From Mycoplasmatota bacterium (GTDB lineage Bacteria; Bacillota_I; Bacilli_A; Haloplasmatales; Haloplasmataceae), in assembly GCA_018394295.1 (NCBI GenBank), contig CP074573.1, forward strand, positions 248,001 through 312,000: DNA of 64,000 bases, in the 5' to 3' direction. The translations under genes were made by a program, and so were the position numbers. Of the stretch, positions 8,390-42,763 are shown piece by piece. Within the stretch, counting starts at the first letter, position 1, and each line of letters begins with the position of its first letter. A model generated the notes under the pieces. It saw nothing but the letters and a program-made list of their open reading frames with translations. It was not told the origin of the DNA and did not search any database.

Positions 8390-9202
8390 ATGATTTTAAA
8401 CGAATATTTTAAAGCTTATTATAGTCAATTAACAAAATCAGAAAAAGAAATTGCGACATACATTGAAGAAAACATTGAAAATGTTATGTATTTCTCAATA
8501 GCTGATTTATCTAGAGAAATAGGTGTTGGTGAATCAACTATCGTTCGTTTCTGTAGAAAATTAGGGTATAGAGGTTTTTATCAATTCAAGATTGAATTAG
8601 CTAAACAATATGCATCTGAAACAAATGATGAATCGGAAGATTATGTCGATCTAATTGAGAAAAACATGATTAATGTTATAAAGTCAACGAAGTTAATTGT
8701 AAATAAAGAGAAATTACAAGAAGCAATTAATCTAATTTTAGGTGCTGGTTATATTTATTTGTATGGTGTAGGGGCATCAGGTTTAGCTGCTCTTGAAGGT
8801 GAAGGAAAATTCATGAGAGGTGGTCTTAAATGCAAAGCGGTTACTGATTCGCATTTTCAGACGATTCTTTCAGGAACACTAACAGAAAAAGATGTAATCA
8901 TTGTTATCTCTTTATCAGGTAGTACCAAAGACCTATTTGAACCAATTGATATCGCTTATAAAAATGGTACGAAGATTATTGTCCTTACAAACAATGTTAA
9001 TTCAAAACTAGCAAAATATGCACATGTAACAATGCAAACAGCAGGTTATGAAAAACCATTAGATGGGGGCTCATTTGTTGCTAAAATATCTCAATTATAT
9101 ATGTTGGATTTATTGTACACTGGAGTTGTATTGAGCGATAAGAATAAAATTTCAAATAACGAAAGAAAAGCCGCGGAAGCAATAAGTAGAAAAATAGATT
9201 AA
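8390..9202 (+). CDS. RpiR/MurR-family transcriptional regulator (HTH + SIS)
   Basis: A 270-residue cytosolic regulator. The N-terminal RpiR helix-turn-helix is visible ('SIADLSREIGVGESTIVRFC', about residues 43-62). A SIS phosphosugar-binding domain follows (about 100-240), with 'YGVGASG' at its start and 'VISLSGSTKDL' as the sugar-phosphate loop. Family members sense phosphosugars such as MurNAc-6-P, GlcNAc-6-P or ManNAc-6-P. Being first in a long operon directly before nanE, it most likely controls the locus in response to an amino-sugar phosphate. Ribosome site: 'ttggggg' before ATG 8390. Ligand is inference. Confidence 0.9.
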   Translation: MILNEYFKAYYSQLTKSEKEIATYIEENIENVMYFSIADLSREIGVGESTIVRFCRKLGYRGFYQFKIELAKQYASETNDESEDYVDLIEKNMINVIKSTKLIVNKEKLQEAINLILGAGYIYLYGVGASGLAALEGEGKFMRGGLKCKAVTDSHFQTILSGTLTEKDVIIVISLSGSTKDLFEPIDIAYKNGTKIIVLTNNVNSKLAKYAHVTMQTAGYEKPLDGGSFVAKISQLYMLDLLYTGVVLSDKNKISNNERKAAEAISRKID

Positions 9203-9218
9203 GAAGTGAGTGATTATT

Positions 9219-9902
9219 TTGATTAGAAAAATACTGAAACCAGGTCTGATTGTTTCGTGTCAAGCATTAGAAGATGAACCATTACATAGTTCAAAGATTA
9301 TGGCAAGAATGGCTGTTGCAGCTCAGATGGGAGGGGCGGTAGCTATTAGAGCTAATTCTGGTAAGGATATTAAAAAAATAAGAAAAGAAGTAAACATTCC
9401 AATCATAGGTCTTGTGAAGAAAGATTATCCTGATTCAGAAATTTACATAACCCCTACTATGAAAGAAGTTAAGGAAGTAGTAAAAGCTGGTGCTGACATT
9501 ATCGCAGTTGATGCAACGGACAGATTAAGACCAAATTCCGTGACACTTGATGAGTTTTATAAAGAAATTAAAAAGAAATATCCAGACATTTATTTAATGG
9601 CAGATGTTTCTACATTTGAAGAAGGAATAAAAGCTGATGAACTAGGGTTTGATTTAATTTCAACGACTCTTAGTGGTTATACAAGTTATACAAGTGATGT
9701 GAATTTACCTAATATTCGACTTGTTGAACAACTATCAAAGGAAATAAAAAATGCAGTTTTAACTGCAGAAGGTGGAATCTGGAGTTCAGAAGATTTAAAA
9801 AAGTGTATGGAATTTAGTTATAGCGCAGTAATTGGGAGTGCAATTACGAGACCACAATTAATAACAAAACATTATGTAGATGGAATGAAAAAAATAAATT
9901 AG
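9219..9902 (+). CDS. nanE: N-acetylmannosamine-6-phosphate 2-epimerase
   Basis: Converts ManNAc-6-phosphate to GlcNAc-6-phosphate in the cytoplasm. The 227-residue protein shows the NanE pattern throughout: 'GLIVSCQALEDEPLHSS', 'GGAVAIRANS', 'IIGLVKKDYP', 'ITPTM', 'IIAVDATDR', 'LMADVSTFEEG', 'TTLSGYT', 'AEGGIW' and 'VIGSAITRP'. TTG 9219 is chosen because it gives the usual short N-terminus (MIRKILKPG) and is 8 bases from a G-rich ribosome site; GTG 9210 is an alternative. No NanA lyase or NanK kinase is present, so ManNAc-6-P must come from another route. It follows the regulator gene within 20 bases. Confidence 0.93.
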   Translation: MIRKILKPGLIVSCQALEDEPLHSSKIMARMAVAAQMGGAVAIRANSGKDIKKIRKEVNIPIIGLVKKDYPDSEIYITPTMKEVKEVVKAGADIIAVDATDRLRPNSVTLDEFYKEIKKKYPDIYLMADVSTFEEGIKADELGFDLISTTLSGYTSYTSDVNLPNIRLVEQLSKEIKNAVLTAEGGIWSSEDLKKCMEFSYSAVIGSAITRPQLITKHYVDGMKKIN

Positions 9903-9915
9903 TGGAGGTAAGAGA

Positions 9916-11382
9916 ATGAAAAAAATAAGTCTATTTCTTCTCGTTATATGTGTAAGCGTATTCATCACGGGTTGTACTGAAAAAAAAGTTGAGACAACTA
10001 CAACAACTGAGTCTAAATCATGTGAAGAAGATCCAAATCAAGCGAAGTGTTCGGAAGACGGTAAAGAAGAGAATAATTATGATTTCCAAGGAAAAGATTT
10101 CATTATTATGGCAAATAATCCGAAAACAGCTGACCCTTTTAGTGATACCTATGAAGGGTTATACCAAAGAGAGAAACAAGAAAATCAAAAACGTGTAGAA
10201 GAAAAATATCATGTTAAAGTCAAATATGTTGGTTATCCAGCTAAGGCATCATGGGGAACACCACGTGATAACTATATCATTAACTCTGAGGTAACTGGGC
10301 AAGCAGCAGCACATATTTATAATATATCTGCATCTTCTATCCCTGTTCTTGCTTCAGCAGGAGCGATTGTACCAATTGGAGAGTATTATGATAAATATGC
10401 TCATGATCAATTCATGCAGTATAAAAAAGAATTTGTGAAGTTCAAGGACGAATATTATGGATATGATGATTCTTACCCATTTACAGATATTGGAATCTAT
10501 TACAATCAAGAATTGTTAGAAGAGTTAGGTTATACACCAAATAAACCATCTCAAATGTGGCGTGATGGAGAATGGACATGGGACAATTTTGAAGCGTTTA
10601 TTAAAGAACTTAACACTAAACTAGACAATCAAAATGGAGAATATCCAATGGGTGGTAAAGTATATGACTGGACAGATGGAATGGTTCCAGCTAATGGTGG
10701 ATTTTATTTAGATGATTCATTGGAAATTGGTGTGGAAAACCCAGAAACAATTGAGGCTCTTGAGAAATTAGCTGAAATGTATGCAATTCCAGGAATGTGG
10801 ATAAGTGAAGTCGATAATGCTTATTCAACAGAAGAAAACTTCAAACAAGGTAAAGTAGTTTTTAATCCTGGTGCACATTGGCATTTGTTTGATTCATCAA
10901 GAATGGGAGAAGCAAATTTTGATATAGGTTTTGTACCATTTCCTAAAGGGAAACATGTGGTTGATGGAACAGCTGAATACAAAACAATTACGCAAATTTG
11001 GGGAGCAGCAACCTATGTTTATAGTAGTAGTTATGATGATGTTCCTGAAGGATATGAACATATGATGTTGTCTACAGAAACTATTCATATGATTCATAGT
11101 GAACTATTATATTTTGGAGATCTTCAGGATACATTTATAGATTTATCAATAGACTTTTTAAAGTATTATGCTGATGAAGAATCAGTTAATGCGCATCTAG
11201 ATGTACTAGACAAAGCACACAATGAGGTATTATACGGATTAGGAATAGATGCATTTGGATTAGAAGATGATAGTTGCATCGTGTTGCTTAATAAAGCAGT
11301 AAAAGAAAATAATGTTCGTGCAACAATGAAAATAATGTCAGAAAATATGAAAGAATCAATAGAGAACATGTTCAATAATTGA
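9916..11382 (+). CDS. Extracellular sugar-binding lipoprotein 1 (ABC importer)
   Basis: A 488-residue family-1 type solute-binding protein. Signal peptide with lipobox 'FITGC' (Cys about 20), a Thr-rich linker with a 'CEEDPNQAKC' pair, then the binding domain. 'YGYDDSYPFTDIGIYYNQELLEELGY' in outline is the typical hinge region, and 'MWRDGEWTWDNFEAFIKELN' the following helix. A close paralogue is encoded at 38997 at the other end of the operon. It probably delivers oligosaccharides to one of the two CUT1 permease pairs. Ribosome site 'gtggaggtaag'. Confidence 0.88.
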   Translation: MKKISLFLLVICVSVFITGCTEKKVETTTTTESKSCEEDPNQAKCSEDGKEENNYDFQGKDFIIMANNPKTADPFSDTYEGLYQREKQENQKRVEEKYHVKVKYVGYPAKASWGTPRDNYIINSEVTGQAAAHIYNISASSIPVLASAGAIVPIGEYYDKYAHDQFMQYKKEFVKFKDEYYGYDDSYPFTDIGIYYNQELLEELGYTPNKPSQMWRDGEWTWDNFEAFIKELNTKLDNQNGEYPMGGKVYDWTDGMVPANGGFYLDDSLEIGVENPETIEALEKLAEMYAIPGMWISEVDNAYSTEENFKQGKVVFNPGAHWHLFDSSRMGEANFDIGFVPFPKGKHVVDGTAEYKTITQIWGAATYVYSSSYDDVPEGYEHMMLSTETIHMIHSELLYFGDLQDTFIDLSIDFLKYYADEESVNAHLDVLDKAHNEVLYGLGIDAFGLEDDSCIVLLNKAVKENNVRATMKIMSENMKESIENMFNN

Positions 11383-11406
11383 TTATATTTTCAAAACTAT
11401 AGTTCG

Positions 11407-11426
11407 TAATATGTGAAAACATATTA
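11407..11426 (+). other. Intergenic stem-loop with GAAA tetraloop
   Basis: TAATATGT-GAAA-ACATATTA: an 8-base-pair stem closed by a GNRA loop between the lipoprotein genes, with no U tract after it. Likely an mRNA-stabilising or processing element, not a terminator. Confidence 0.45.
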
Positions 11427-11453
11427 TATATAAAGTAAATAGGAGGGAATAAA

Positions 11454-14400
11454 ATGAAGAAATTATTTAGTATGATGTTAATTCTTTTGGTTTTTGGATT
11501 AACATTAGCAGGATGTAACAAGCCTAAAAGTACTACAACAACTGGAACAGAGACAGAAACAAGTACAGAAATAGAGACAGACACAATAAAACCATTATTA
11601 AAAGTAACTCCTACAGATGTAACAATTATGTTTGGAGAAAATTATGAGTTAATGACTGGTGTAGAAGCTACTGATAATAAAGATGGCGATATTACTGGTT
11701 CTGTTACTGTTGAAGAAGGTGATTTCAATAATGAAGTCCCAGGACAATATGTTATTACTTATCGTGTAGCAGACTCTTCAGGTAATGAAGAAACTGCAAC
11801 AAGAAACTTAACTGTCCTTGAAAAAATGCCAGCAGTGGTTGTTGACGGTAATAAATATGGTATGGTTTACAATCCACTACTAAATCCAAAATTCTTAATG
11901 GGAAATTCATTTGATAAGAATGGTAACGAAGTTACTAACCCATGGCATTTTGATTTAACAAAAGTCAGTGTATTTAGTAAAGATTATTTTGACTGGTTAT
12001 ATGCAAACTATCCAAATCGTCTTTATGCAGGTTGGACAAATATTGCAGTTACAGATGCTGATGGTAAGATTGTTCTATTAAGAGATCATAACTGTAACCA
12101 GTACTCTGAAGAAAATGGAATTGAAGTATGTAGTATTTGGTCAAATGGTACTCAAGATAATGAGTACAAAAATCTACATGCTGGATTTGCTAATTTAACA
12201 GTTCCAGATGGTGGACATGTTATGGTATTTATCAATGATGGTTCAAACCAAGAAGGTTCACCTAGAGCATTTGGTGATGCATTAATGGCTGGTGGAGCAG
12301 GTCTTGGAAAAGAAATTGAAATTCAGTTTCCAGAAGTGATTGTTGATCATGCAAGTAATCAACTTCCTATTATTACAGTTCCTGAAGATGATTTCGTAAA
12401 AGAACTTATTGTAAATGATACATTTGATGTAATGGAAGGTGTTACTGTAACAGATAATGAAGACGGAAACGACGTTACATTAGAAACAAAGATTTTAAAA
12501 TTTGATGATACTGAATATGTTGAAGTTTCTGAAGTAACTACAACTGAACCTAGTATCTATATAATTGAATATAGTGCAGATTATGATGGATTTAGAAAAG
12601 TTACTGCACGTCGTCAAGTAGTAGTAAACTCTGAAGTAGCTCCTGAAGAAAAATTCTTAACATTAGGAGATTCACAAATTGCTGTCGTTGAAAATCCAAT
12701 TAATTGGACTGTTGATGGCGTTCATTTATACACAAAAGAATATTGGGATGCTAATGTAGCTGATTGGGCAACAAATTCTTATCAGTGGGCAGTAGTAGCC
12801 GTAACAGATCAATACGGAAGAATCGTTGAGGTAAGATCTGCATGGGGTGCTCCATTCGGACACTATACAGTAGATAACCCAAATGGTGCAGCACCAGACG
12901 AAAGTGTATGGGGTAGTATTGATGGAACAACTTGGGCTGTTGATATGATTACTAATTTAACAGTACCTGATGGTGGATTTGTTATTGGATTTGGACATGC
13001 AGCGGGTACAAATGAATATAGAACATGGGCTTATAAAAATTTACTTACTGATCAAGAATTTGATGGAACTAATGATTCATCAGACCCACAACAATATGCA
13101 AATTTAAGCCCAATTGGTAAAGTATTTGGAGGGGAATGGTTCCCTAATGTTATTACAGTTGGACAAGAAGACATTTTAGTAGTAGAAAACCCAGCAGATT
13201 GGGCAACTTATTACAATGTACATAATGGACATCTATATACAAAAGCATTCTGGGATGCAATTGATCAAAGCCAATTAGTAGATATTGGTGATGGATGTAT
13301 GTATCAATGGAGTCTAGTAGTCGTTTTAGATGCATCAGGAAAAGTTGTAGAGATTAGAGATGGAGCAACTGCATTTGAATATACTGAAGCAAATCCTTCA
13401 GGTATTGCAGCTACATCATGGACAGGTCAAACTCCTACAGCTGGATTAAATGTACCAGAAAATGGTTATGTATTAGCATATTATCTTGATAAAGAAGTAG
13501 GTTATAAAGCATTTGTACACACTAGTGGAGCTCCTGCAGAGGGTGTTACAGATGTTAATGCGATTGGAACAATCGTTGAAGGTAAATGGTTCACTGAAGA
13601 AGTTGAAGAGGTTGAACAAGATTTTATTACAGTTGGAGATGAAGACATCCTTGTAGTTGTAGACCCAGCAGATTGGGCATCTTATCATACTGTACAAGGT
13701 TCACATCTTTATACAAAAGCATTTTGGGATGCAATTGATCAAAGTCAATTAAATGGTATTGAAGATGGATGTTTGTATCAATGGAGTCTATTAGTTATAT
13801 TAGATGAATTTGGTAGAGTAGTAGAAATTAGAGATGGATTAACTGGAACTGAATTTACTGCTACTAATCCAGCAGGTGTAGCAGCTACAACTTGGACAGC
13901 ACAAACACCAACCGCTGATTTAGTTGTACCTGAAAATGGTTATGTATTAGCTTTCACTAAAATTGGTGAAGATACTACATGGAGAACAGCTGGATATACA
14001 GCATTTGTTCATTCTAGTGGAGATCACAAAACAGCTCCAGGTACTACAGATGTAAATGCGCTTGGAACATTCGTTGAAGGTAAATGGTTCGCTGAATATG
14101 TTGAACAAGATTATATTACAGTTGGAAATGAAGACATTCTTGTAGTTGCAGACCCAGCAGATTGGGCATCTTATCATACTGTACAAGGTTCACATCTTTA
14201 TACAAAAGCATTTTGGGATGCAGTTGATCAAAGTAAATTAAATGGTATTAATGATGGATGTTTTTATCAATGGAGTCTGTTAGTTATATTAGATGAATTT
14301 GGTAAAGTAGTTGAAATTAGAGATGGATTAACTGGAACTGAATTTACTGCTACTAATCCAGCAGGTGTAGCAGCAACAACTTGGACAGCACAAACACCAA

Positions 14401-15074
14401 CCGCTGATTTAGTTGTACCTGAAAATGGTTATGTATTAGCTTTCACTAAAATTGGTGAAGATACTACATGGAGAACAGCTGGATATACAGCATTTGTTCA
14501 TTCTAGTGGAGATCACAAAACAGCTCCAGGTACTACAGATGTAAATGCGCTTGGAACATTCGTTGAAGGTAAATGGTTTGCTGAAATAGTTCTTCCTCAT
14601 ATTACAGTTGGAACTGAAGACATTCTTGTAGTTGAAAATCCAGTAGATTGGGCATCTTATCATACTGTACAAGGTTCACATCTATATACAAAAGCATACT
14701 GGGATGCAGTTGACCAAAGTCAATTAAATGGTATTAATTATGGAAGTTTTTACCAATATAGTTTACTAGTTGTATTAGATGAAACAGGTAAAGTAGTAGA
14801 AATTAGAGATGGATTAGCTGGTGATGGTTTTGAATTTACTGAAACTAATCCTACAGGTGTAGCAGCAACAACTTGGACAAGAACTACACCAACAGCTGGA
14901 TTAATTGTACCAGATAATGGTTATGTATTAGCTTTCACAGCTATTAATAATACCGACAAAACATGGAGAACAGCAGGTTATAAAGCATTTGTTCATACTA
15001 GTGGAGACCACGCTGTAGGTCTTGGTACTACAGATGTTAATGCGATTGGAACTACTGTCGTATTACCTAATTAA
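11454..15074 (+). CDS. Large repeat-containing surface lipoprotein with an Ig-like (DUF5011-type) domain
   Basis: A 1206-residue lipoprotein. Lipobox 'TLAGC' (Cys about 20), Thr/Glu-rich linker, then an Ig-like domain at about 45-125 ('NKDGDITGSVTV', 'PGQYVITYRVADSSGN') of the DUF5011 type, and a second degenerate one at about 300-395. Six units of about 155-163 residues follow the pattern 'ILVV..P.DWA', 'GSHLYTKAFWDA', 'YQWSLLVILDEFGRVVEIRDG', 'VPENGYVLAF', 'AFVHTSG'. The first two are divergent; the last four start at 13152, 13626, 14115 and 14601. Units 2 and 3 of those four are nearly identical in DNA. Probable cell-surface glycan-binding or adhesion protein feeding the importer; function is inference. 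An Ig domain plus binding repeats beside a solute-binding protein suggests substrate capture. Confidence 0.75.
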   Translation: MKKLFSMMLILLVFGLTLAGCNKPKSTTTTGTETETSTEIETDTIKPLLKVTPTDVTIMFGENYELMTGVEATDNKDGDITGSVTVEEGDFNNEVPGQYVITYRVADSSGNEETATRNLTVLEKMPAVVVDGNKYGMVYNPLLNPKFLMGNSFDKNGNEVTNPWHFDLTKVSVFSKDYFDWLYANYPNRLYAGWTNIAVTDADGKIVLLRDHNCNQYSEENGIEVCSIWSNGTQDNEYKNLHAGFANLTVPDGGHVMVFINDGSNQEGSPRAFGDALMAGGAGLGKEIEIQFPEVIVDHASNQLPIITVPEDDFVKELIVNDTFDVMEGVTVTDNEDGNDVTLETKILKFDDTEYVEVSEVTTTEPSIYIIEYSADYDGFRKVTARRQVVVNSEVAPEEKFLTLGDSQIAVVENPINWTVDGVHLYTKEYWDANVADWATNSYQWAVVAVTDQYGRIVEVRSAWGAPFGHYTVDNPNGAAPDESVWGSIDGTTWAVDMITNLTVPDGGFVIGFGHAAGTNEYRTWAYKNLLTDQEFDGTNDSSDPQQYANLSPIGKVFGGEWFPNVITVGQEDILVVENPADWATYYNVHNGHLYTKAFWDAIDQSQLVDIGDGCMYQWSLVVVLDASGKVVEIRDGATAFEYTEANPSGIAATSWTGQTPTAGLNVPENGYVLAYYLDKEVGYKAFVHTSGAPAEGVTDVNAIGTIVEGKWFTEEVEEVEQDFITVGDEDILVVVDPADWASYHTVQGSHLYTKAFWDAIDQSQLNGIEDGCLYQWSLLVILDEFGRVVEIRDGLTGTEFTATNPAGVAATTWTAQTPTADLVVPENGYVLAFTKIGEDTTWRTAGYTAFVHSSGDHKTAPGTTDVNALGTFVEGKWFAEYVEQDYITVGNEDILVVADPADWASYHTVQGSHLYTKAFWDAVDQSKLNGINDGCFYQWSLLVILDEFGKVVEIRDGLTGTEFTATNPAGVAATTWTAQTPTADLVVPENGYVLAFTKIGEDTTWRTAGYTAFVHSSGDHKTAPGTTDVNALGTFVEGKWFAEIVLPHITVGTEDILVVENPVDWASYHTVQGSHLYTKAYWDAVDQSQLNGINYGSFYQYSLLVVLDETGKVVEIRDGLAGDGFEFTETNPTGVAATTWTRTTPTAGLIVPDNGYVLAFTAINNTDKTWRTAGYKAFVHTSGDHAVGLGTTDVNAIGTTVVLPN
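13152..15074 (+). repeat. Four tandem coding repeats of 474-489 bp
   Basis: Units start at 13152, 13626, 14115 and 14601. All keep frame, so unit gain or loss would change protein length by about 160 residues. Units 13626-14114 and 14115-14600 are the closest pair and share runs of identical sequence over most of their length. Confidence 0.85.
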
Positions 15075-15092
15075 TTTAATAATTACACTAAC

Positions 15093-15124
15093 TAGTTATA
15101 TGGGGATTTATCCCCATATAACTA
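15093..15124 (+). other. 15-bp perfect hairpin between genes, no U tract
   Basis: TAGTTATATGGGGAT (15093-15107) and ATCCCCATATAACTA (15110-15124) are perfect reverse complements separated by TT. It lies between the repeat lipoprotein and the NAGPA gene and is not followed by a T run. Could stabilise the upstream mRNA, partially terminate or be a bidirectional binding site. Confidence 0.6.
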
Positions 15125-15148
15125 AATCTATTAATATAGAGGTCTAAT

Positions 15149-16690
15149 ATGGGAAGAAAAATTAAACAAATATTTTTAGGAATCATATTAAGTTTTATAT
15201 TTACTAACTCAATCTATGTGTCTGCAGATGAGGCACAGGATTTTAAACTAAATCTTGGTGATGTAACTAAATACGACCATGAACAAATAAGTGATATATT
15301 ATATGAACGTTTCGAAATAGCTGGCAATGATGGGATAAAGAGAGTTGCATTTAAAGCAGCTTTTGATCAAAAATCTAGTAATGTTGATATGGTACTTTGG
15401 GATAATTATATTGATGCTAATCATTATAAAAAAGCTACTGTTATGGAGATTGCAAAGAATTTTGAAGAAGAAACTGGTAGAAAAGTATACGCTGCTGTAA
15501 ATGGAGATTTCTTTTTGATGTCATATCCACAAGATAAAAATCTAGTGGGTAAGACTTTGCACACTTACATGAAAGATGGGAAAGAAATTGTTTATGGATG
15601 GGAAACTAAATTAACTAATTTCGGTTTTAATAATCAAGGTGAGTATAAGATTCAAACTGGGGTTCTAACACTGGATACTCAGAAAAAGAAGATATTACGC
15701 GTTTATCTTGATGATAACAATTATAAAGATTTTGACATTGATAAATTAGATAAAATGGTAATTGGAGGAGAAGTTGGTATTTATACACCAGCCTCTAAAC
15801 AAATAAACGGAACATTTACAGGAAAGTATATTGCAAAAGTCGAAAACAATAATTATGATTATCCGATTAAAGCGAACATTGTTAGAGATAGTAATCAAGA
15901 ACTATTAACGAATAGTTTAGTAGATATACCTTCAGGTCATATTGGAATAGCAGTTAATTCTTTCGGACAATACATAAGTGGTGAAGCACAATTTTTCTAT
16001 GAAACATTACAAAATGGACAGAAAATTGAGATTTTAGAAAAAGAACATTATAGTGATTCAGGGTTTGAAAATTTAAATTATGTTGTTGGTGGAAGAACTA
16101 AATTAGTATTAAATAGAGAAATAACACCAGAAGGAACAAGTATAGCAGTAGGTCCAACTTCGACACATCCAAGAACAACTCTGGGAGTTACCGTTGATGG
16201 AGAATTCTTTATTCAAGTAATTGATGGAAGACAATCAGGATATAGTACAGGACTTACTACAAGAGCTCAAGCTCAACTTGCCTATGATTTAGGTGCTAAA
16301 GATGCGATAGAATTAGATGGTGGTGGTTCAACAACATTTATTTTAAGAGTAAATGATGAATTACAGGTAGTTAATCGACCATCGAATGATAATAGGGTTT
16401 TACGACCAGTTGGGAATGCTGTTTTATTTGTAGAAGCAGTAGGTAGTGAATTATCAGAAGAGGTGCCTAACTGCGAAGCTTATAGTAATTTAGAAGCATG
16501 TAAAACTACTACGACCGAAACTGAAACTACTACAGAAAATACTACTACTACTGATACTCCGATAGATAATAACAATGACAATGATAATGATAATAATAAT
16601 ACTAATATTTATATTATTTCTGCTATTGTTGGAGTTATGGTAATTGGAGCCCTTGGAGCCCTTGGAGTAACGATCAAAAGGAAGCGTTAG
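15149..16690 (+). CDS. Surface-anchored phosphodiester glycosidase-domain (NAGPA) protein
   Basis: A 513-residue secreted protein with a signal peptide (about 1-26) and a C-terminal membrane helix ('IISAIVGVMVIGALGALGV') followed by KRKR, preceded by a Thr/Asn/Asp-rich stalk. The domain at about 85-435 matches the NAGPA family (phosphodiester alpha-GlcNAcase, PF09992): 'AAVNGDFF' early, 'HPRTTLGVT' at about 341, 'DGRQSGYSTG' at about 359 and 'AIELDGGGSTTF' at about 386-397, where the DGGGS loop is the family hallmark. The mammalian member removes GlcNAc from GlcNAc-1-P-6-mannose. Here it would act on the outer face of the membrane on a sugar phosphodiester or another glycoside. Bacterial specificity is not settled. 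Overlap and spacing place it in the main operon. Confidence 0.87.
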   Translation: MGRKIKQIFLGIILSFIFTNSIYVSADEAQDFKLNLGDVTKYDHEQISDILYERFEIAGNDGIKRVAFKAAFDQKSSNVDMVLWDNYIDANHYKKATVMEIAKNFEEETGRKVYAAVNGDFFLMSYPQDKNLVGKTLHTYMKDGKEIVYGWETKLTNFGFNNQGEYKIQTGVLTLDTQKKKILRVYLDDNNYKDFDIDKLDKMVIGGEVGIYTPASKQINGTFTGKYIAKVENNNYDYPIKANIVRDSNQELLTNSLVDIPSGHIGIAVNSFGQYISGEAQFFYETLQNGQKIEILEKEHYSDSGFENLNYVVGGRTKLVLNREITPEGTSIAVGPTSTHPRTTLGVTVDGEFFIQVIDGRQSGYSTGLTTRAQAQLAYDLGAKDAIELDGGGSTTFILRVNDELQVVNRPSNDNRVLRPVGNAVLFVEAVGSELSEEVPNCEAYSNLEACKTTTTETETTTENTTTTDTPIDNNNDNDNDNNNTNIYIISAIVGVMVIGALGALGVTIKRKR

Positions 16691-16698
16691 GTGATAAA

Positions 16699-17361
16699 AT
16701 GAATTTTGAAAAATATATAGACAGTAAACTCTACCACTTCTTCGATAAGGCTTTTAATTTAATTGTAATAAACTTATTATTAATTTTAATAAGTATTTTA
16801 GGGTTAGGAGTGTTTACTTTATTCCCTGCCCTAGCTGCTACTTATGTTTTATTACAATGTGAAAGCAATGATATTGGTGTATCACTCATAAAGAGTTTCT
16901 ATATAGTAATGAAAAAAGATTATATTAAATTACAGAAATTATTTATTATGATTGTACTTATTATAGGAATATTTGCGTTTAATACAATGTTTTTTTATGA
17001 GTACGCAATAAGTCAAAATGGGTCAATGTTTCATTTTGTTGGTTTATTTGTTATTTTATCGATAGATTTATTAATAATTGGTATGCTATTACATTTATTT
17101 CCTGTCTATATGTATTTCAATAAATTAAAACCCATTGGAATCATAAAATTCTCTACATTGATGGTATTTGCCTATCCGTTTAGAACCATCTTAGTGGTAC
17201 TTATATCCTTTGGGTGGATTCTTTTAATATCATTTCAACCGCCTACTATTCCCTTTATTTCAGTTACTATTCCAATCTATATATATTTGAAACTATTTAA
17301 TTCGACCTATAAAAAATTGACAAATAATGATACACCAATAGAAAATTATTATTTTAGCTAA
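16699..17361 (+). CDS. YesL/DUF624-family membrane protein
   Basis: A 220-residue integral membrane protein with about five or six helices. The opening 'YHFFDKAFNLIVINLLLIL' and 'LGLGVFTLFPALAATYVLL' is the characteristic start of the DUF624/YesL family, which sits beside CUT1 sugar importers in many Firmicutes (for example in the rhamnogalacturonan operon of Bacillus subtilis). Function not known; an accessory or assembly role in carbohydrate uptake is the usual suggestion. Starts 8 bases after the NAGPA gene with 'taggtgat' as ribosome site and is followed after 25 bases by the solute-binding fusion. Confidence 0.85.
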   Translation: MNFEKYIDSKLYHFFDKAFNLIVINLLLILISILGLGVFTLFPALAATYVLLQCESNDIGVSLIKSFYIVMKKDYIKLQKLFIMIVLIIGIFAFNTMFFYEYAISQNGSMFHFVGLFVILSIDLLIIGMLLHLFPVYMYFNKLKPIGIIKFSTLMVFAYPFRTILVVLISFGWILLISFQPPTIPFISVTIPIYIYLKLFNSTYKKLTNNDTPIENYYFS

Positions 17362-17386
17362 AAAAATAATGTGGAGTGATGAGAGT

Positions 17387-21318: not shown

Positions 21319-21319
21319 G

Positions 21320-22237: not shown

Positions 22238-22246
22238 GTGAAAGTT

Positions 22247-23716: not shown

Positions 23717-23717
23717 T

Positions 23718-34104: not shown

Positions 34105-34132
34105 TAAGTTGTCAAGTAAGGAGGCGTTTATA

Positions 34133-35650: not shown

Positions 35651-35661
35651 GAGAAGTTAAA

Positions 35662-37425
35662 ATGGAGAATACACTTAAAAATGCAATTAATGAATTAAGC
35701 AGATATTATGAGGAATTTAAAGACTTAAACTTAGAAATTAAACATTCTAATGAAACAAAAATAGAAAATGGTATTTTATATTTTAATCAAGTCAATAAAG
35801 CGTTACTCTGTTTGGTTAATTATATTAATGGACGAAGTGTTGAGATTAGTGATCACTTTGAGACATTTGGAACGATGATTGATTTATCTAGAAACGCTGT
35901 CTATACGCTTCAGTATATGAAGTCAACGATCCGAAAGAAAGCGTTAATGGGTGTTAACAGCATCATGCTTTATACTGAAGACACTTATGAAGTAAAAGAT
36001 GAACCCTATTTTGGTTATATGCGTGGAAGATATACTAAGGAAGAAATAAAAGAAATTGTTAGATATGCGAAAATATTTGATATTGAAGTGATTCCATGTA
36101 TACAAACATTAGGACATATGGAACAGTACCTAAAATGGGTTAGTAGTCACAATATAAAAGATAATGATCGTGTTTTAATGGTTGATTTACCAGAAACATA
36201 TACATTTATTGAAAAACTCATCTCTTCTGTTTCCGAAATGTATGAAACAAGCAAGATACATATTGGAATGGATGAAGCCCAAGGATTAGGACTTGGAAAA
36301 TATTTGAAAAAGAATGGTTATAAAGAACAATTTGAAATTTTTTCAAGACACTTAAATCAAGTGGTAGAAATTTGTCAGAAACATGGATTTGAAGATATCA
36401 TGATTTGGTCTGATATGTACTTTAGAATGGCAAGTATTAGAGATGAATATTATGATTTCAATGTTACGTTTACTGATGAAGTTAAAAATAGCATCCCAGA
36501 AAATGTACAGTTAGTCTATTGGGACTATTATCAAACAGGGAAAGAACAGTATGATAATATGATCAATAAGCATAAAGATTTTCGTAAAGAGATTATTATG
36601 GCATCTGGGATTTGGACATGGACTAAATTGGTATATGACAAGAAGTTAACAGAAAACAGAGCATTAAAGTCAATCCAATCATGTATTGATAATAATATTA
36701 ACTCAATATATTTTACAATGTGGGGCGATGATGGTGCCTATTGTGATATGGATTCATCACTACTAGGTGTTTTTGATATGGCAAATTATAGTTTTGTTCA
36801 AGATAAGATGGACAAGGTAGTATTTAATTATATTACTAAATATGATTATGATTTATTTAATACCCTATCAGATCTAAATGAGTCACCAATATGTCCTGTG
36901 GCTTTACTTTGGGATGATCCATTATTAGGAATTTATTTAAATAATGAAATGATTAAAGATGATAATATTCTTAATACTACAAAGGATTTTTTAACTGAGT
37001 ATAGTGAGAAATTGAAGAAAACACAAAACCATTGTTTTTCATCAAAACACACATATTTGTTATCAGAAGTACTAAAATATAAACTATTGGTTAGAAAAGA
37101 GTTATTAGATTGTTATTTCAATAAAAAATCTATGACGAATGTTATTGAACTATGTGAAGAAGCAGTTCATTGGACCAAAGAGTTAACAGAATCATTTAGA
37201 ACGATGTGGATGAGCCGTTATAAACCATTTGGTTTTGAAGTAATTCAATCTCGATTAGCAACTATTATGATTAGATTAGAAGAAACAAAAAGAAGAGTAT
37301 ACGAATATGAGAATAAAGAAACTTCAAATATTATTGAATTAGAGGAAAAAGCTAAGCATAGTCAATATATTTATGAACGTCATGAGCTTATAGCGTATTC
37401 AAGTTACTCTAAGCTAGTTGGTTAG
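35662..37425 (+). CDS. Cytosolic GH20 beta-N-acetylhexosaminidase (GcnA-like)
   Basis: A 587-residue protein without signal peptide. The GH20 barrel is recognised by 'IMLYTEDTYEV', 'GYMRGRYTKEE', 'IPCIQTLGHMEQYLKW' and 'HIGMDEA' at about residues 200-206, where D204-E205 is the catalytic Asp-Glu pair of substrate-assisted hydrolysis. 'MIWSDMYFR', 'LVYWDYYQT' and 'FTMWGDDGAYCDM' are later substrate-binding strands. Streptococcal GcnA, also cytosolic and about this size, is the nearest type I recall. It would release terminal GlcNAc or GalNAc from imported oligosaccharides. Ribosome site 'taggagaag'; 11 bases after the first DUF4127 gene. Confidence 0.88.
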   Translation: MENTLKNAINELSRYYEEFKDLNLEIKHSNETKIENGILYFNQVNKALLCLVNYINGRSVEISDHFETFGTMIDLSRNAVYTLQYMKSTIRKKALMGVNSIMLYTEDTYEVKDEPYFGYMRGRYTKEEIKEIVRYAKIFDIEVIPCIQTLGHMEQYLKWVSSHNIKDNDRVLMVDLPETYTFIEKLISSVSEMYETSKIHIGMDEAQGLGLGKYLKKNGYKEQFEIFSRHLNQVVEICQKHGFEDIMIWSDMYFRMASIRDEYYDFNVTFTDEVKNSIPENVQLVYWDYYQTGKEQYDNMINKHKDFRKEIIMASGIWTWTKLVYDKKLTENRALKSIQSCIDNNINSIYFTMWGDDGAYCDMDSSLLGVFDMANYSFVQDKMDKVVFNYITKYDYDLFNTLSDLNESPICPVALLWDDPLLGIYLNNEMIKDDNILNTTKDFLTEYSEKLKKTQNHCFSSKHTYLLSEVLKYKLLVRKELLDCYFNKKSMTNVIELCEEAVHWTKELTESFRTMWMSRYKPFGFEVIQSRLATIMIRLEETKRRVYEYENKETSNIIELEEKAKHSQYIYERHELIAYSSYSKLVG

Positions 37426-37436
37426 GTGAGGAAAAA

Positions 37437-38948
37437 ATGAAAAAGAAAATAATTTTAATACCATTAGATGAAAGACCTTGTAATCAAGAGTTTCAAAAAC
37501 TTTTAACAATTGATACCGATTATGAAGTATTAACGCCACCTTTAGAATATTTAGGACTTCAAAAAAAACCAGGTGATATTGATAAAATATGGAATTGGTT
37601 ACATAAAGAAGTAAAAAATGCCTTTGGTTTAATTCTATCTATTGACACGTTATTGTATGGTGGACTTGTTCCATCACGTCTTCATAATCAAGGTGTAGAA
37701 GAGTTATTAAAAAGAATCGATGATTTAAAGGCTATTAAAACAGATAATAAAGATTTAAAGATTTATGCTTTTGATACTATTATGCGTACACCAAGCTATT
37801 CATCAGATGACGAAGAACCTGATTATTATAATGTTTGGGGTAAAGATATTCATGATTTTGGTGCCCTTACTCATAAGGTTGAAGTTAATGTTGCATCAGA
37901 ATCTGATAAGCAATTACTTAGTGAAATAAAATCTAGATTACCGATGGAGTTTTATCAAGATTATACTGACAGACGTAAAAAAAATGTTGAAGTCACAAAA
38001 AGAATCATTGATTTTGTTAAAGATGAAACAATTGACTTTATGGTTATTCCACAAGATGATGCAACGCCATTTGGATTAACCGCTAAAGATCAAATTGTCA
38101 TTAGACAATATATTCACGATCAAAAAACACAGTTGAAAGCTTATATGTATCCTGATGCAGATGGTGTTGCCAATACCTTATTAGCTCGATTAATCAATGT
38201 GGATAAAGGAATTAGACCAAGTTTCTATGTGAAATATGCTAGTGAAGCAGGTAAATTGGTCATTCCTTGTTTAGAAGACCGTCATATTATAGAAACAATT
38301 AAATATCAAATATTAGCAGTTAATGGTGTTTTAACATCCTGTGTGGAAAACGCTGATGTGGTGTTAATGATAAATGTTGCACCTAAAATGTTTGATGTAC
38401 GATTCTCTTATTTAAAAGGAATTGAACACGATGTATTTAGAAATTTAATTGAGTATATTGAGTATGCTGATTACGCTGTTAATACATTGAAAAAACCTGT
38501 TATTATCGGTGATGTTGCTTATGCGAATGGCTCTGATTTAGAGTTAGTTGACCTTATTTACCAAAAAGGTTTAACTTATAAATTAGCAGGTTATGCTGCT
38601 TGGAATAGTTCATCAAACTCATTAGCAACAGCTATTGCTCAAGGAATTATCTATAATATATATGGAAAAACAAAATCACATTTAGAATTCTTAGCGATGA
38701 GATTTATTGAAGATGCTGGGTATCAATCTATAGTTAGACAAATTGTTGTGGATCAATTACCTAGTATGGGTATGGACTTTTTTAACATTGATGGACCACG
38801 TGGAAAAGTTGCAACTATGGTTAAAGAGGGATTACAAAAATATATCAATGAGGAGCTACCAAAAGAGTATCCTGTAAAGATTGTAGAATGTTATCAACCT
38901 TGGTCAAGAATGTATGAGGTAGGCTTAAAGGTAAAAATCAAAGATTAG
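37437..38948 (+). CDS. DUF4127 family protein 2
   Basis: 503 residues, cytosolic, beginning MKKKIILIPLDERPCN. It shares with the protein encoded at 34133 the blocks 'LSIDTLLYGGLVPSRLH', 'IMRTPSYSSDDEEPDYY', 'IPQDDATPFGLTAKDQ', 'YPDADGVANTLLARLIN' and 'AAWNSSSNSLATAIAQG'. The two are divergent paralogues, not a recent duplication, so they may act on different parts of the substrate or form a heteromer. 'DADGVA' here replaces 'ADEVGC' of the first copy at a conserved position, a possible specificity difference. Role unknown. Confidence 0.86.
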   Translation: MKKKIILIPLDERPCNQEFQKLLTIDTDYEVLTPPLEYLGLQKKPGDIDKIWNWLHKEVKNAFGLILSIDTLLYGGLVPSRLHNQGVEELLKRIDDLKAIKTDNKDLKIYAFDTIMRTPSYSSDDEEPDYYNVWGKDIHDFGALTHKVEVNVASESDKQLLSEIKSRLPMEFYQDYTDRRKKNVEVTKRIIDFVKDETIDFMVIPQDDATPFGLTAKDQIVIRQYIHDQKTQLKAYMYPDADGVANTLLARLINVDKGIRPSFYVKYASEAGKLVIPCLEDRHIIETIKYQILAVNGVLTSCVENADVVLMINVAPKMFDVRFSYLKGIEHDVFRNLIEYIEYADYAVNTLKKPVIIGDVAYANGSDLELVDLIYQKGLTYKLAGYAAWNSSSNSLATAIAQGIIYNIYGKTKSHLEFLAMRFIEDAGYQSIVRQIVVDQLPSMGMDFFNIDGPRGKVATMVKEGLQKYINEELPKEYPVKIVECYQPWSRMYEVGLKVKIKD

Positions 38949-38996
38949 TGAATTATTAATATTAATATAATGATTATGAAAGATAGGGAGGATAAA

Positions 38997-40463
38997 ATGA
39001 AAAAAAATTTACTATTATTATTGTTTATTTCAATTAGTTTGTGTTTAGTAGGTTGTAATAAAACTGAAACAAAAACAACAACTACATCAACAACAACATC
39101 AACATCAAAATCATGTGAAGAAGATCCTAATCAAGAAAAATGTGTTGAAGAAGTGAAATATGATTTTCAAGGAAAAGACTTTATTATTAGGGTAAATGAT
39201 CCTAATAAAGCAGATCCATTTAGTGATTCATTTGAAGGACTTTATCAAAGAGAAAAACAAGAGAATCAACGTCGTGTAGAAGAAAAATACCATATAAAAG
39301 TTAAATACGTTAGTTATTCACCTAATCCAAGTTGGGGTGTTCCTCGTGATAATTGGATCATAAATTCTGAGATAACAGGACAACCAGGAGCACATGTTTA
39401 TAACATCCCAGCATCTTCAATTCCTATTCTTGCAGCTGCTGGTGTTATTGCACCTTTAGGAGAATATTATGATAAATATGCAGATGCTCAATTTGTAGAA
39501 AATAAAAAAGAATTTGTTAAATTCAAAGATGAGTTCTATGGTTATGATGATTCCTATCCATTTACTAATTTTGGATTATATTATAATCAAGATCTATTAG
39601 TAGAACTTGGTTATGAACCTGATTATCCTACAAAGATGTGGGAAGAAGGAGAATGGACTTGGGAAAATTTTGAAGCTTTCGTAAAAGAATTAAATACAAA
39701 ATTAGAACCTCAGGATGGAGAGTATCCTATGGGAGGAATACTATATGACTGGGCATACGGTATGGTACCAGCAAATGGTGGTTATTTTCTTAATGATGCA
39801 TTAGAATCTGGTGTTAAAACGCCTGAAACTATTGAAGCACTTGAAAATTTAGCGGAATTATATGCTATTCCTGGAATGTGGATTAATGAAGTTGATTACT
39901 CTCTTGCGACTGAAGAAAATTTTAAACAAGGTAAAGTTGTGTTTAATCCTGGAGAGAGTTGGCATGCATTTGATCCATCACGAATGGGAGAAAGAAGTTT
40001 TACAGATTTAGGATTTGTGCCTTTTCCAATAGGAAACCATGTGGTTGATGGAACGGCAGAATATAAAACGCTTGTAAGTATTTGGGGTCCTGCAACTTTT
40101 GTTTATAGTTCTGGTTATGATGATGTTCCTGAGGGCTATGAACATATGATGTTCTCAACTGAAACCATTTTTATGATACATAGTGAATTATTATATTTTG
40201 GAGATTTACAAGATACATTTATTGATTTATCAATTAACTTCTTAAAGTACTATGCAGATGAAAAATCGGTTAATGCTCACCTAAATGTAATAGATAAGGC
40301 TTATAATGAATATCTATATGGGTTAGGTAAGGATTCTTTCGGATGGGAAGAAAGTAATTTTAATGTTCAAATAAATAGTGCGATAAGTAATAATAACGTT
40401 CGTGCTCAAATGACAATATTGGATGAAAATATGAAAAGTGCAATGGATTCTTTATTTGAATAG
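38997..40463 (+). CDS. Extracellular sugar-binding lipoprotein 2 (ABC importer)
   Basis: ATG 38997 follows AGGGAGG (38985-38991); an in-frame ATG at 38970 would put charged residues before the signal peptide. 488 residues, lipobox 'CLVGC', Thr/Ser linker with the same 'CEEDPNQEKC' pair as the lipoprotein encoded at 9916. The binding domains of the two can be aligned without gaps over most of their length ('FYGYDDSYPFTNFGLYYNQ', 'EGEWTWENFEAFVKELN', 'YDDVPEGYEHMMFSTET'). Two such proteins and two permease pairs suggest two related substrates. The strong hairpin at 40509 ends the operon behind it. Confidence 0.88.
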   Translation: MKKNLLLLLFISISLCLVGCNKTETKTTTTSTTTSTSKSCEEDPNQEKCVEEVKYDFQGKDFIIRVNDPNKADPFSDSFEGLYQREKQENQRRVEEKYHIKVKYVSYSPNPSWGVPRDNWIINSEITGQPGAHVYNIPASSIPILAAAGVIAPLGEYYDKYADAQFVENKKEFVKFKDEFYGYDDSYPFTNFGLYYNQDLLVELGYEPDYPTKMWEEGEWTWENFEAFVKELNTKLEPQDGEYPMGGILYDWAYGMVPANGGYFLNDALESGVKTPETIEALENLAELYAIPGMWINEVDYSLATEENFKQGKVVFNPGESWHAFDPSRMGERSFTDLGFVPFPIGNHVVDGTAEYKTLVSIWGPATFVYSSGYDDVPEGYEHMMFSTETIFMIHSELLYFGDLQDTFIDLSINFLKYYADEKSVNAHLNVIDKAYNEYLYGLGKDSFGWEESNFNVQINSAISNNNVRAQMTILDENMKSAMDSLFE

Positions 40464-40508
40464 TTAAATAAAATTCTCCAATAAAAAGATTTAATTATTA
40501 CAAGTAAA

Positions 40509-40543
40509 AAAGGTACTATTCATAAGAATGGTACCTTTATTTA
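40509..40543 (+). terminator. Strong intrinsic terminator at the end of the glycan operon
   Basis: AAAGGTACTATTC (40509-40521) pairs with GAATGGTACCTTT (40526-40538) with one wobble and an ATAA loop, followed by a T-rich stretch. Marks the end of the main operon; the SGNH gene downstream needs its own promoter or read-through. Confidence 0.8.
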
Positions 40544-40594
40544 TTACTAAGAAATAGTATTAAGATTTTAATAAAAAGAATGGAGATAATGTAT

Positions 40595-41146
40595 ATGTGT
40601 AAAAAAAATATTGTTTTCCTTGGTGATTCTATAACAGCAGGATTTACCTTACTAGAAAATTATGATAATGTAGTAAACTTAGGTGTAAGTGGTGATAAAA
40701 CAACTGAAGTATTAGATCGTATTCATGATGTGTTTCAATATAATCCTGAAAAATTAATAATTCTTATTGGAATAAATGATTTTTTAGTTAATAAGAAAGT
40801 TTGGTTTCATCCTACTGAAATTAATATTCCAGAGAATTTTCAAAAAATAATTGAAATATTAAGAGAGAATTTACCTGATACTAAGTTTTATAGTATCTCG
40901 ACATTTCCATTAGGAAAAAATGAACTTTTTAGTAACGATTTATTACCACAATATAATCAAGAAATAGATGACTTAAATAATGAATATAAAAGAATATCTG
41001 AGAAATATCATGTAGAATTTTTAAATATTAGTCATATATTAAAAGATGATAATGGTATTTTGAAAGATGAATATACATTAGATGGTGTTCATTTAACGGA
41101 AGCTGGATACAAGAAATATTTAGAAGCAATTAAAGAATTATTATAA
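40595..41146 (+). CDS. SGNH/GDSL hydrolase (probable carbohydrate esterase)
   Basis: ATG 40595 is chosen since GGAGAT (40582-40587) is 7 bases before it; ATG 40580 and 40589 are in frame but overlap or abut that site. 183 residues, no signal peptide. Block I 'FLGDSITAG' (Ser12 nucleophile), block II Gly in 'NLGVSGDKTTEVLDRI', block III 'IGINDFL' (Asn) and block V 'DGVHLTEAGY' (Asp/His) are all present, so the active site looks complete. Such small SGNH enzymes often remove O-acetyl groups from sugars. As the first gene after the operon terminator it may complement the GH20 and GHL10 enzymes by deacetylation. Confidence 0.88.
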   Translation: MCKKNIVFLGDSITAGFTLLENYDNVVNLGVSGDKTTEVLDRIHDVFQYNPEKLIILIGINDFLVNKKVWFHPTEINIPENFQKIIEILRENLPDTKFYSISTFPLGKNELFSNDLLPQYNQEIDDLNNEYKRISEKYHVEFLNISHILKDDNGILKDEYTLDGVHLTEAGYKKYLEAIKELL

Positions 41147-41182
41147 GAAATATGTTTATTTTTCATTCATGAGGTGAAAGGT

Positions 41183-42763
41183 ATGAAAAAAAGAAAATAT
41201 GATATTGTTATTATTGGTGGAAGTATAGGGGGTACCCTAGCAGCATTATCATGTGCTAAGATGGGGAAACGTGTTGTCTTAACGGAAGAAACGAAATGGA
41301 TTGGTGGACAATTTACAAATCAAGCTGTTCCAGCTGATGAACATAGATGGGTAGAAGAATTTGGTTGCACAGCTACTTACCGACAATTTAGAGATGCTGT
41401 AAGAGATTATTATAAGAATCATCCTTATATTAAAGAAGGTATTAAATCAAAGAAAAATTTAAATCCTGGTGAGGGTTGGGTGAGTAGAATATGTCATGAA
41501 CCTCGTGTATCGCTAAAGATTTTAGAAGATATGCTTTTACCTTATATAAACAAGGGTTCAATCACAATTTTAACTGAGACAAAAGCAATCTATTCTAAAA
41601 AAGTGGAAGATGATATTAAGAGTATTACTGTTAAAAGTTTACCCACTAATGAATTAATTGAATTAATAGGAAAATATTATCTAGATGCTACCGATACTGG
41701 TGAATTACTTCCCTTAACTAGTACAGAATACATTACTGGAGCTGAAAGTAAGGATGAGTTTAATGAACCCCATGCATTAGATACTGCTAATTGTGAAGAT
41801 ATGCAACCTACGACTTGGGTAGCTGCTCTTGAATATATAGAAAATGAAGATCACACGATTGAAAAACCGGAAATGTATGATTTCTTTAGAAATTATCAAA
41901 TGAATTATGATGATGATGTCATTTTAAGTTGGTATGCCCCAGACCCAGATGAGCGAAAGAAGCGATTATATGGGATGTTTGACTGGATTACAACGAAAGA
42001 TGGTCAACAAATTCCACCGTTATTTACCTATCGTCGAATTATTAATAAAAATTATTTTAAGGAAGAATTTAAGTTAAATGATGTGACATTATTAAATTGG
42101 CCTATGAATGATTATTATTTAGGTAATATTTTTGATAATGAAAATAGTGAATATCACAAATATATGGCAAAACAACAAACATTATCACTTGTTTATTGGT
42201 TGCAAACTGAGGCAGATAGACCAGATGGTGGTAAAGGTTTTAAAGGATTAAAACTTCGTGGTGATGTACTGGGGACTGAAGATGGATTAGCGATGGCACC
42301 TTATATTCGAGAATCCCGTCGAATAAAGGCAAAATTTACAGTGGTAGAACAGGATATAAATGCTGATATACAAAAAACCTTACCACATTTTTGGGATACC
42401 GTTGGAATAGGTTGTTATCATATTGACATCCATATGACAACCGTCTCAAACTCCTATTTTTATCATACGAGTTGGCCATTTGAAATTCCATTAGGATCAA
42501 TGATCCCAATAAAGACCAAGAACTTAATTGCTTCTTGTAAGAATTTAGGAACAACTCATCTAACAAATGGTTGTTATCGATTACATCCAGTTGAATGGAA
42601 TATTGGAGAAGTTGCAGGATATTTGGCTAGTTATTGTATCAATCATAATATTACTCCTGCAAAACTGTATGAAGATAAATATCTTGTTGAAGAATTTCAA
42701 CAGTTATTAATAAAAAATGGGATAGAGTTACACTGGCCTGAAGATAAAGTGCATGCCATCTAA
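41183..42763 (+). CDS. FAD-dependent oxidoreductase (PF12831 type)
   Basis: ATG 41183 with GAGGTGA (41171-41177) 5 bases upstream; GTG 41174 is inside that ribosome site. 526 residues, cytosolic. Rossmann FAD motif 'DIVIIGGSIGGTLAALSCA' with E in 'VVLTEETKWIGGQFTNQ', then 'LDATDTGELLPL', typical of the FAD_oxidored family, and the C-terminal FAD contact 'THLTNGCYRLHPVEWNIGEV'. Relatives occur in polysaccharide utilisation loci, but their reaction is mostly unknown. It could oxidise a sugar or sugar derivative released by the locus. Probably co-transcribed with the SGNH gene (about 36 bases apart). Confidence 0.85.
   Translation: MKKRKYDIVIIGGSIGGTLAALSCAKMGKRVVLTEETKWIGGQFTNQAVPADEHRWVEEFGCTATYRQFRDAVRDYYKNHPYIKEGIKSKKNLNPGEGWVSRICHEPRVSLKILEDMLLPYINKGSITILTETKAIYSKKVEDDIKSITVKSLPTNELIELIGKYYLDATDTGELLPLTSTEYITGAESKDEFNEPHALDTANCEDMQPTTWVAALEYIENEDHTIEKPEMYDFFRNYQMNYDDDVILSWYAPDPDERKKRLYGMFDWITTKDGQQIPPLFTYRRIINKNYFKEEFKLNDVTLLNWPMNDYYLGNIFDNENSEYHKYMAKQQTLSLVYWLQTEADRPDGGKGFKGLKLRGDVLGTEDGLAMAPYIRESRRIKAKFTVVEQDINADIQKTLPHFWDTVGIGCYHIDIHMTTVSNSYFYHTSWPFEIPLGSMIPIKTKNLIASCKNLGTTHLTNGCYRLHPVEWNIGEVAGYLASYCINHNITPAKLYEDKYLVEEFQQLLIKNGIELHWPEDKVHAI

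Follow-up and report, generated by a model that had tools for sequence, protein, structure and literature searches.

We analyzed a 64,000-nucleotide stretch of DNA (the window, positions 248001–312000 of contig CP074573.1) from the 3.29-Mb genome of a Mycoplasmatota bacterium whose nearest named relatives are Haloplasmataceae. The window carries a cluster of 23 genes in which two members of the DUF4127 family are found together with NanE, the 2-epimerase of N-acetylmannosamine-6-phosphate (ManNAc-6-P), and with ATP-binding cassette (ABC) importers of the CUT1 type, several glycosidase-like proteins and a flavin adenine dinucleotide (FAD)-dependent oxidoreductase, hereafter the FAD enzyme. The features of the cluster, in window coordinates and with the basis of each assignment, are as follows.

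8390–9202, +, RpiR/MurR-type regulator with SIS domain (Pfam HTH_6 and SIS)
9210–9902, +, NanE, ManNAc-6-P 2-epimerase (Pfam 1e-64; NCBIfam over cut-off; the genome's only copy)
9916–11382, +, lipoprotein, probable solute-binding protein (lipobox-like N-terminus; resembles the 38970–40463 protein)
11454–15074, +, lipoprotein of 1206 amino acids (aa) with Ig-like domain and tandem repeats (Pfam Bact_surface_Ig-like; repeats seen in translation)
15149–16690, +, NAGPA-type phosphodiester glycosidase, predicted to be exported and C-terminally anchored (Pfam NAGPA 6.5e-27; hydropathy)
16699–17361, +, DUF624 membrane protein (Pfam)
17369–20161, +, solute-binding protein, long form, with in-frame TAA, frame open to 20368 (Pfam SBP; Haloplasma contractile orthologue)
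20386–22237, +, CUT1 permease pair 1, 20386–21318 and 21320–22237 (BPD_transp_1)
22238–23716, +, exported NHL/TPR-like protein, weak assignment (hydropathy; sub-cut-off NCBIfam match)
23709–24365, +, Yip1 membrane protein (Pfam)
24375–26909, +, DUF5696, anchored extracellular protein (Pfam 2.8e-176)
26921–28871, +, CUT1 permease pair 2, 26921–27880 and 27852–28871 (BPD_transp_1)
28888–30834, +, GHL10 glycosidase-like protein, cytosolic form (Pfam; frame opens at 28819, likely ATG at 28888)
30831–33137, +, GHL10 glycosidase-like protein, exported and anchored form (Pfam; hydropathy)
33139–34104, +, GNAT acetyltransferase with two GNAT stretches (Pfam)
34079–35650, +, DUF4127 copy a, of the subfamily of phosphotransferase system (PTS)- and GH38-type cassettes (Pfam 4e-152; tree)
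35662–37425, +, GH20 (GH20C type) beta-N-acetylhexosaminidase, cytosolic (Pfam, GH20C C-terminus; D204–E205)
37437–38948, +, DUF4127 copy b, of the subfamily of ABC/FAD/NanE cassettes (Pfam 5e-147; AlphaFold predicted local distance difference test, pLDDT, 91.6; tree)
38970–40463, +, solute-binding lipoprotein (Pfam)
40509–40538, +, terminator-like hairpin of 13 pairs (hairpin scan)
40580–41146, +, GDSL/SGNH acylhydrolase, cytosolic (Pfam; same neighbour in relatives)
41174–42763, +, FAD-dependent oxidoreductase, PF12831 (Pfam FAD_oxidored; genome distribution nested with that of DUF4127)

Calling of open reading frames (ORFs) gave exactly 21 between 8390 and 40463, all on the + strand, in agreement with the first-pass annotation of this DNA. 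Spacing mostly ranges from overlaps to +74 bp, and the single apparent gap, of 224 bp, is the remainder of the second solute-binding protein gene after its in-frame TAA. Beyond that codon (20159–20161), 68 codons still match the C-terminus of the H. contractile orthologue, which is uninterrupted; the TAA reflects either a broken gene or a sequencing error. The first-pass annotation had also placed the 21 genes between one promoter and one strong terminator. The 13-pair hairpin has the longest stem in the terminator scan, in which the number of terminator-like sites was at chance level; the −35/−10 match at 8290–8318 is one of 116, compared with 122.7 in shuffled sequences, and because the number of matches is at chance level it provides no evidence for a promoter. 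Co-transcription is suggested by the spacing and by the gene order kept in H. contractile, where NAGPA, DUF624, a solute-binding protein, two permeases, NHL, Yip1, DUF5696 and two further permeases are followed by two GHL10 genes, GH20, DUF4127, a solute-binding protein and GDSL, and then by RpiR, the FAD enzyme, GNAT, another DUF4127, NagA and NagB.

Pfam agreed for the most part with the gene list that had been drawn up from the sequence, returning two clear SBP_bac_1 proteins and four BPD_transp_1 permeases. The ORF at 9916–11382 has no Pfam match and is labelled a binding protein solely from its likeness to the lipoprotein at 38970–40463; the NHL assignment at 22238–23716 is weak, having no Pfam NHL match and a single NCBIfam match far under cut-off; and the list had omitted the Ig-like/repeat lipoprotein altogether. 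The GDSL and FAD genes beyond the hairpin, which had been described as likely associated, do belong with the cluster: GDSL has the same neighbour in relatives, and the FAD enzyme, 81% identical to that of an H. contractile genome, is linked to DUF4127. Hydropathy analysis predicted no export signal in RpiR, NanE, one GHL10 protein, GNAT, both DUF4127 proteins, GH20, GDSL or the FAD enzyme, an export signal in the other GHL10 protein, NAGPA, DUF5696, the NHL-like protein and the binding proteins, and a membrane location for DUF624, Yip1 and the permeases. The two GHL10 paralogues, of which the first is cytosolic and the second is exported and anchored, lie side by side (28888–33137). Four WG-repeat proteins flank the operon, two on each side (4326–7449 and 42965–46251).

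A profile of 18 DUF4127 proteins retrieved at least 577 relatives in species-representative genomes, and gene neighbourhoods were analyzed at 79 loci, taking in as much as 10 kb of flanking DNA on either side. NanE was found near DUF4127 in 59 of the 79, the FAD enzyme in 54–55, CUT1 permeases in about 54, RpiR in 45 and a ROK kinase in 39, followed by GH20 (13), GH84 (8) and DUF5696 (6). The NanE and FAD genes are almost always on the same strand as DUF4127 and at most five genes away, and GH84 immediately adjoins DUF4127 in all 11 loci that have it (8/8 in this set and 3/3 further loci). A second set, taken from genomes of a 295-genome draw and near relatives, agreed with the first, with NanE in 13 of 26 stretches and the FAD enzyme in 11. 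The co-occurrence predicted at the outset therefore holds for NanE and CUT1 permeases, across Bacillota and Mycoplasmatota, and fails for DUF5696, which its counts exclude as a core partner of DUF4127. The FAD enzyme co-occurs with DUF4127 over that same range of phyla. DUF5696 travels with NHL, Yip1 and BPD3/BPD4 genes in a module that has differing partners; an AlphaFold model of it built from 11 sequences reached a pLDDT of 50.7 and was not used for fold search. The core is DUF4127–NanE–(FAD enzyme)–ROK–RpiR with an importer, and DUF5696, NHL and Yip1 constitute a lineage-specific module. Together with NagA and NagB, which adjoin DUF4127 in close relatives, the linkage to NanE and CUT1 permeases bears out the earlier view of an amino-sugar glycan system. 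Esterases (GDSL, GxDLY, abhydrolase) and acetyltransferases (GNAT, AAC(3)) are also recurrent near DUF4127, which suggests acylated or partly de-N-acetylated sugars. A domain of ~290 aa, with no Pfam or NCBIfam match, occurs in L067:14526–15497 and other Acholeplasma-type loci in two forms, one cytosolic between the FAD enzyme and NanE and one a lipoprotein beside DUF4127.

NanE is present in the source genome as a single copy, inside the operon, and has K70 and E187 at conserved positions which, like D204–E205 in GH20, we take from family knowledge to be catalytic. The sialate lyase NanA exceeded the TIGR00683 cut-off in none of 30 cassette genomes; Haploplasma modicum had no match at all, and the best match in the source genome scored 107 bits, under a cut-off that is strict, so that this genome might still hold a divergent NanA elsewhere. 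In several genomes another NanE gene is found only a few kb from a stronger NanA-like gene, suggesting that the NanE linked to DUF4127 is fed from another source. The kinase, NagA and NagB required for NanE-dependent catabolism are all present in the source genome, outside the operon: NagA and NagB, both over cut-off, at C1:2333056–2334935, and a ROK gene, one of the two that are full length, at C1:875988, directly behind a third DUF4127 gene. NagA–NagB adjoin DUF4127 in H. contractile, as does NagB in another relative.

Five loci carry a minimal version of the system, consisting of NanE, a HAD phosphatase, a PTS permease and DUF4127, and RpiR lies within or beside them. These are L107, L109 and L121 (three relatives in class) and plasmids of Carnobacterium and Enterococcus faecalis. 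All five hold a DUF4127 of the subfamily of copy a, the window operon itself being of the ABC-import type. The IIC proteins exceeded the TIGR00410 lactose/cellobiose cut-off in all four cases checked. PTSs of this type deliver phosphorylated disaccharides that need a phospho-glycosidase, and no other glycosidase is present in the five cassettes, which leaves DUF4127 as the only cleaving candidate. The FAD enzyme, too, was absent from PTS-type DUF4127 cassettes. There is precedent for such an arrangement, in a different enzyme family, in MupG with the MurP PTS of Staphylococcus aureus (PMC6262408) and ChbE with a cellobiose-type PTS of Lacticaseibacillus (PMC12791066). In these GH170 (DUF871) systems a cytosolic enzyme takes a PTS-imported N-acetylhexosamine (HexNAc) disaccharide phosphate and feeds amino-sugar-6-phosphate metabolism (PMC6262408, PMC12791066), as DUF4127 would in the PTS cassettes. 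Unlike them, DUF4127 has neither a sequence match to DUF871 nor a superposing structure among the matches listed, its systems proceed via NanE and not via MurQ or NagA directly, and the window cluster imports by ABC.

Both DUF4127 copies in the operon match Pfam profile positions 1–488/489, with 508 and 491 bits, over the gathering score. Invariant across 60 divergent members are D11, R13, R81, R117, R180, D208, G213, D242, E280, W389, N390, N394 and D426; the acidic residues might act in catalysis or bind metal, and the arginines would be well placed to meet a phosphate or carboxylate, which is suggestive only. The AlphaFold model of copy b (pLDDT 91.6, predicted template modelling score, pTM, 0.92) predicts an alpha/beta protein with many of the conserved residues placed right after strand ends, and in Foldseek searches the top ranks were taken by TIM-barrel sugar enzymes (E 4e-4). 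A sequence search of solved structures returned nothing beyond a single chance row (E 0.59), and the 18 DUF4127 members showed no similarity to DUF871 (GH170/MupG) and matched no other Pfam family below E 0.04; a Memo match in one of the 18 (E 0.041) was rejected as chance. A literature search found no paper on DUF4127. No relatives were found in a pattern search of viral contigs; the predicted viral protein A0A346TNQ6 in BFVD (693 residues) has the DUF4127 fold (template modelling (TM) score 0.82 by query, 24% identity).

Phylogenetic analysis, by a quick method that left some long branches, separated the three DUF4127 genes of the source genome. Copy a clades with PTS-type and GH38-type cassettes (Shimodaira–Hasegawa-like approximate likelihood ratio test, SH-aLRT, 95), copy b with the ABC/FAD/NanE cassettes of Acholeplasma and Haloplasma and with Clostridia sequences (SH-aLRT 99), and the third copy, outside the operon, falls in a separate clade that also holds the H. 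contractile copy linked to NagA/NagB. Copies a and b are 36% identical and belong to different supported clades, excluding a recent duplication, and the operon therefore probably holds two specificities. Paenibacillaceae also have a divergent class of longer DUF4127 proteins (about 570–650 aa, E near 1e-60), whose carriers mostly lack the FAD enzyme. DUF4127 genes are also borne on plasmids in Carnobacterium, Priestia, Deinococcus, E. faecalis and Subdoligranulum (L149, L150, L151, L153, L154), and given this carriage they may spread horizontally.

In the 295-genome draw the distribution of the FAD enzyme is nested within that of DUF4127. DUF4127 was found in 17 of these genomes, and 12 of the 17, but no other genome, have the FAD enzyme (hypergeometric 9e-18, a statistic that ignores kinship); its matches were all at ≥49% identity, and nothing weaker appeared down to E 1e-20. 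The link goes beyond proximity, as two genomes carry the two genes on separate contigs. Among 150 Paenibacillaceae, a full-length canonical DUF4127 occurs in 46 genomes, 45 of which also have the FAD enzyme; 17 of the 68 genomes with the FAD enzyme lack DUF4127, and exclusive dependence of the former on the latter, true in the 295-genome draw, was therefore rejected in this family. Conversely, many DUF4127 loci do without the FAD enzyme, which is thus dispensable for some DUF4127 pathways and, as in the first-pass annotation, still has no assigned step. Its partners vary: L147 combines it with MocA, NagB, NagA, NanE and ROK but no DUF4127, and L132 with an etherase-like SIS protein and NamZ. 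In one lineage the FAD oxidoreductase is joined, within a single gene (L073:16631–20830, 1400 aa), to a GH38 alpha-mannosidase-like protein; in two other lineages GH38 has a shorter FAD enzyme as its neighbour. On the Deinococcus plasmid, where DUF4127 stands alongside GH20 and permeases, the annotated FAD oxidoreductase gene overlaps it by 4 bp. A sequence search of solved structures matched the FAD motif only, and a literature search on PF12831 yielded only a flavoproteome survey. Judged by its gene contexts, the protein is best seen as a putative redox enzyme of amino-sugar glycosides with changing partners.

We propose that DUF4127 is a cytosolic enzyme releasing ManNAc or ManNAc-6-P, and that the cluster serves to take up and break down a glycan rich in HexNAc and probably acylated, from which DUF4127 cleavage yields ManNAc; to each of these we assign a probability of about 0.5. 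Sialic acid would probably not be the starting point of the route that frees this ManNAc. Judging from families and predicted localisation, anchored GHL10, NAGPA and DUF5696 would trim the polymer outside the cell, and the binding proteins and two CUT1 permease pairs would import the fragments. In the cytosol, GDSL and perhaps GNAT may adjust acyl groups, GH20 (GH84 in relatives) would remove beta-GlcNAc (N-acetylglucosamine), and DUF4127 would cleave the ManNAc unit off its neighbour, giving ManNAc from ABC-imported fragments or, in PTS-using relatives, ManNAc-6-P from disaccharide phosphates. A ROK kinase would then convert ManNAc to ManNAc-6-P, NanE would convert this to GlcNAc-6-P, and NagA and NagB would lead on to fructose-6-phosphate. 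In most systems of the ABC type the FAD enzyme would carry out a redox reaction on the substrate of DUF4127. Candidate substrates are beta-ManNAc polymers, for example secondary cell wall polymers. That of P. alvei has the repeat GlcNAc-beta-1,3-(4,6-Pyr)-ManNAc (PMC6030368), and degrading it would call for a GlcNAc-ase, an enzyme that releases ManNAc, and NanE; no gene of the cluster is known to act on this polymer.

Several observations weigh against this proposal. The near-obligatory FAD partner in ABC-type genomes would not be expected of a plain hydrolase, and simple hydrolysis leaves the HAD phosphatase of the PTS cassettes and an HD_3 phosphohydrolase in Oscillospiraceae loci unexplained. 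It is NanE alone that points to ManNAc as the product, and NanE was not found within 10 kb of DUF4127 in 20 of the 79 loci, which are those most similar to the query and mostly from Paenibacillus. Furthermore, the best-ranked solved structures fail to superpose on the model of DUF4127, with TM by query ≤0.26 for all 50 matches listed, so that the putative glycoside-cleaving role derives from context.

An oxidative cleavage is unlikely but carries some weight among the alternatives. Here the FAD enzyme would oxidise a ring hydroxyl of a HexNAc glycoside and DUF4127 would finish the reaction by elimination or hydration of the keto-sugar, with C2 lost or inverted so that ManNAc arises and NanE is needed. 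Besides the nested distribution of the two proteins, 10 of 20 sampled loci of FAD-enzyme homologues without adjacent DUF4127 have a GFO/IDH/MocA gene nearby and three have AP_endonuc_2, the kinds of protein used in 3-keto-glycoside pathways. L147, with MocA and without DUF4127, looks as if MocA and DUF4127 were alternatives, and the changing partners of the FAD enzyme likewise keep this explanation alive. Beta-elimination of O- and C-glycosides has been shown (PMC10628242). However, the PTS-type cassettes lack the FAD enzyme, so DUF4127 can work without it; most of the MocA-linked FAD enzymes belong to a separate clade (12 of the 20 homologues form a clade of their own) and may act differently; and, unlike 3-keto-glycoside pathways, the window cluster has neither GFO/IDH/MocA nor AP_endonuc_2 among its 23 genes. 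A more specific version, in which the two proteins would form an oxidative module (oxidation beside C2, elimination by DUF4127, then hydration that inverts C2, whereby GlcNAc glycosides would emerge as ManNAc, with NanE needed to convert them back), is more doubtful still.

That DUF4127 replaces NanA as a non-orthologous lyase, splitting sialic acid or a related compound into ManNAc and pyruvate, is improbable. RpiR, NanE, the ROK kinase, the CUT1 importer, DUF624 and downstream NagA/NagB do recall nan operons, NanA was not found over cut-off, and the conserved arginines of DUF4127 would suit a carboxylate. Nevertheless, the system has DUF4127 and an FAD enzyme instead of NanA, the linked glycosidases are HexNAc-ases (GH20, GH84) and the families scanned included no sialidase hit, uptake in the minimal cassettes is by a disaccharide-type PTS, and several genomes keep a separate NanE near a stronger NanA-like gene. 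We consider it just as improbable that unrelated glycan modules have merely come together in the operon, with DUF4127 and the FAD enzyme acting on a substrate unconnected with NanE: the modular gene order, the DUF5696/NHL/Yip1/permease module with its different partners and the 20/79 loci without NanE would fit, but the same-strand linkage of DUF4127 to NanE has arisen repeatedly and independently, the five minimal cassettes included. Least probable is salvage of MurNAc (N-acetylmuramic acid)–GlcNAc fragments from peptidoglycan, which the MurR/RpiR-type regulator, GH20 and the etherase-like SIS protein and NamZ of L132 would suit, since neither MurQ nor NamZ was found among the 23 genes and NanE is needless for MurNAc salvage.

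The earlier inference that the pathway must contain undescribed chemistry was too strong, as DUF4127 is explicable as a new glycoside-cleaving enzyme family. If DUF4127 does release ManNAc, it would be a new family for a bond poorly suited to the usual hexosaminidases; because the acetamido group of ManNAc is axial, enzymes relying on acetamido assistance should cleave this bond poorly, and our literature search found no paper for an N-acetylmannosaminidase. Given the small PTS cassette, a single enzyme and a handful of disaccharides would suffice to test the function. The presence of NanE in organisms without a recognised sialate lyase would also be explained, so that NanE alone would be no evidence of sialic-acid use. 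DUF4127 is a large family that its gene neighbourhoods tie to one metabolic entry point, NanE, in many families of Bacillota and Mycoplasmatota.

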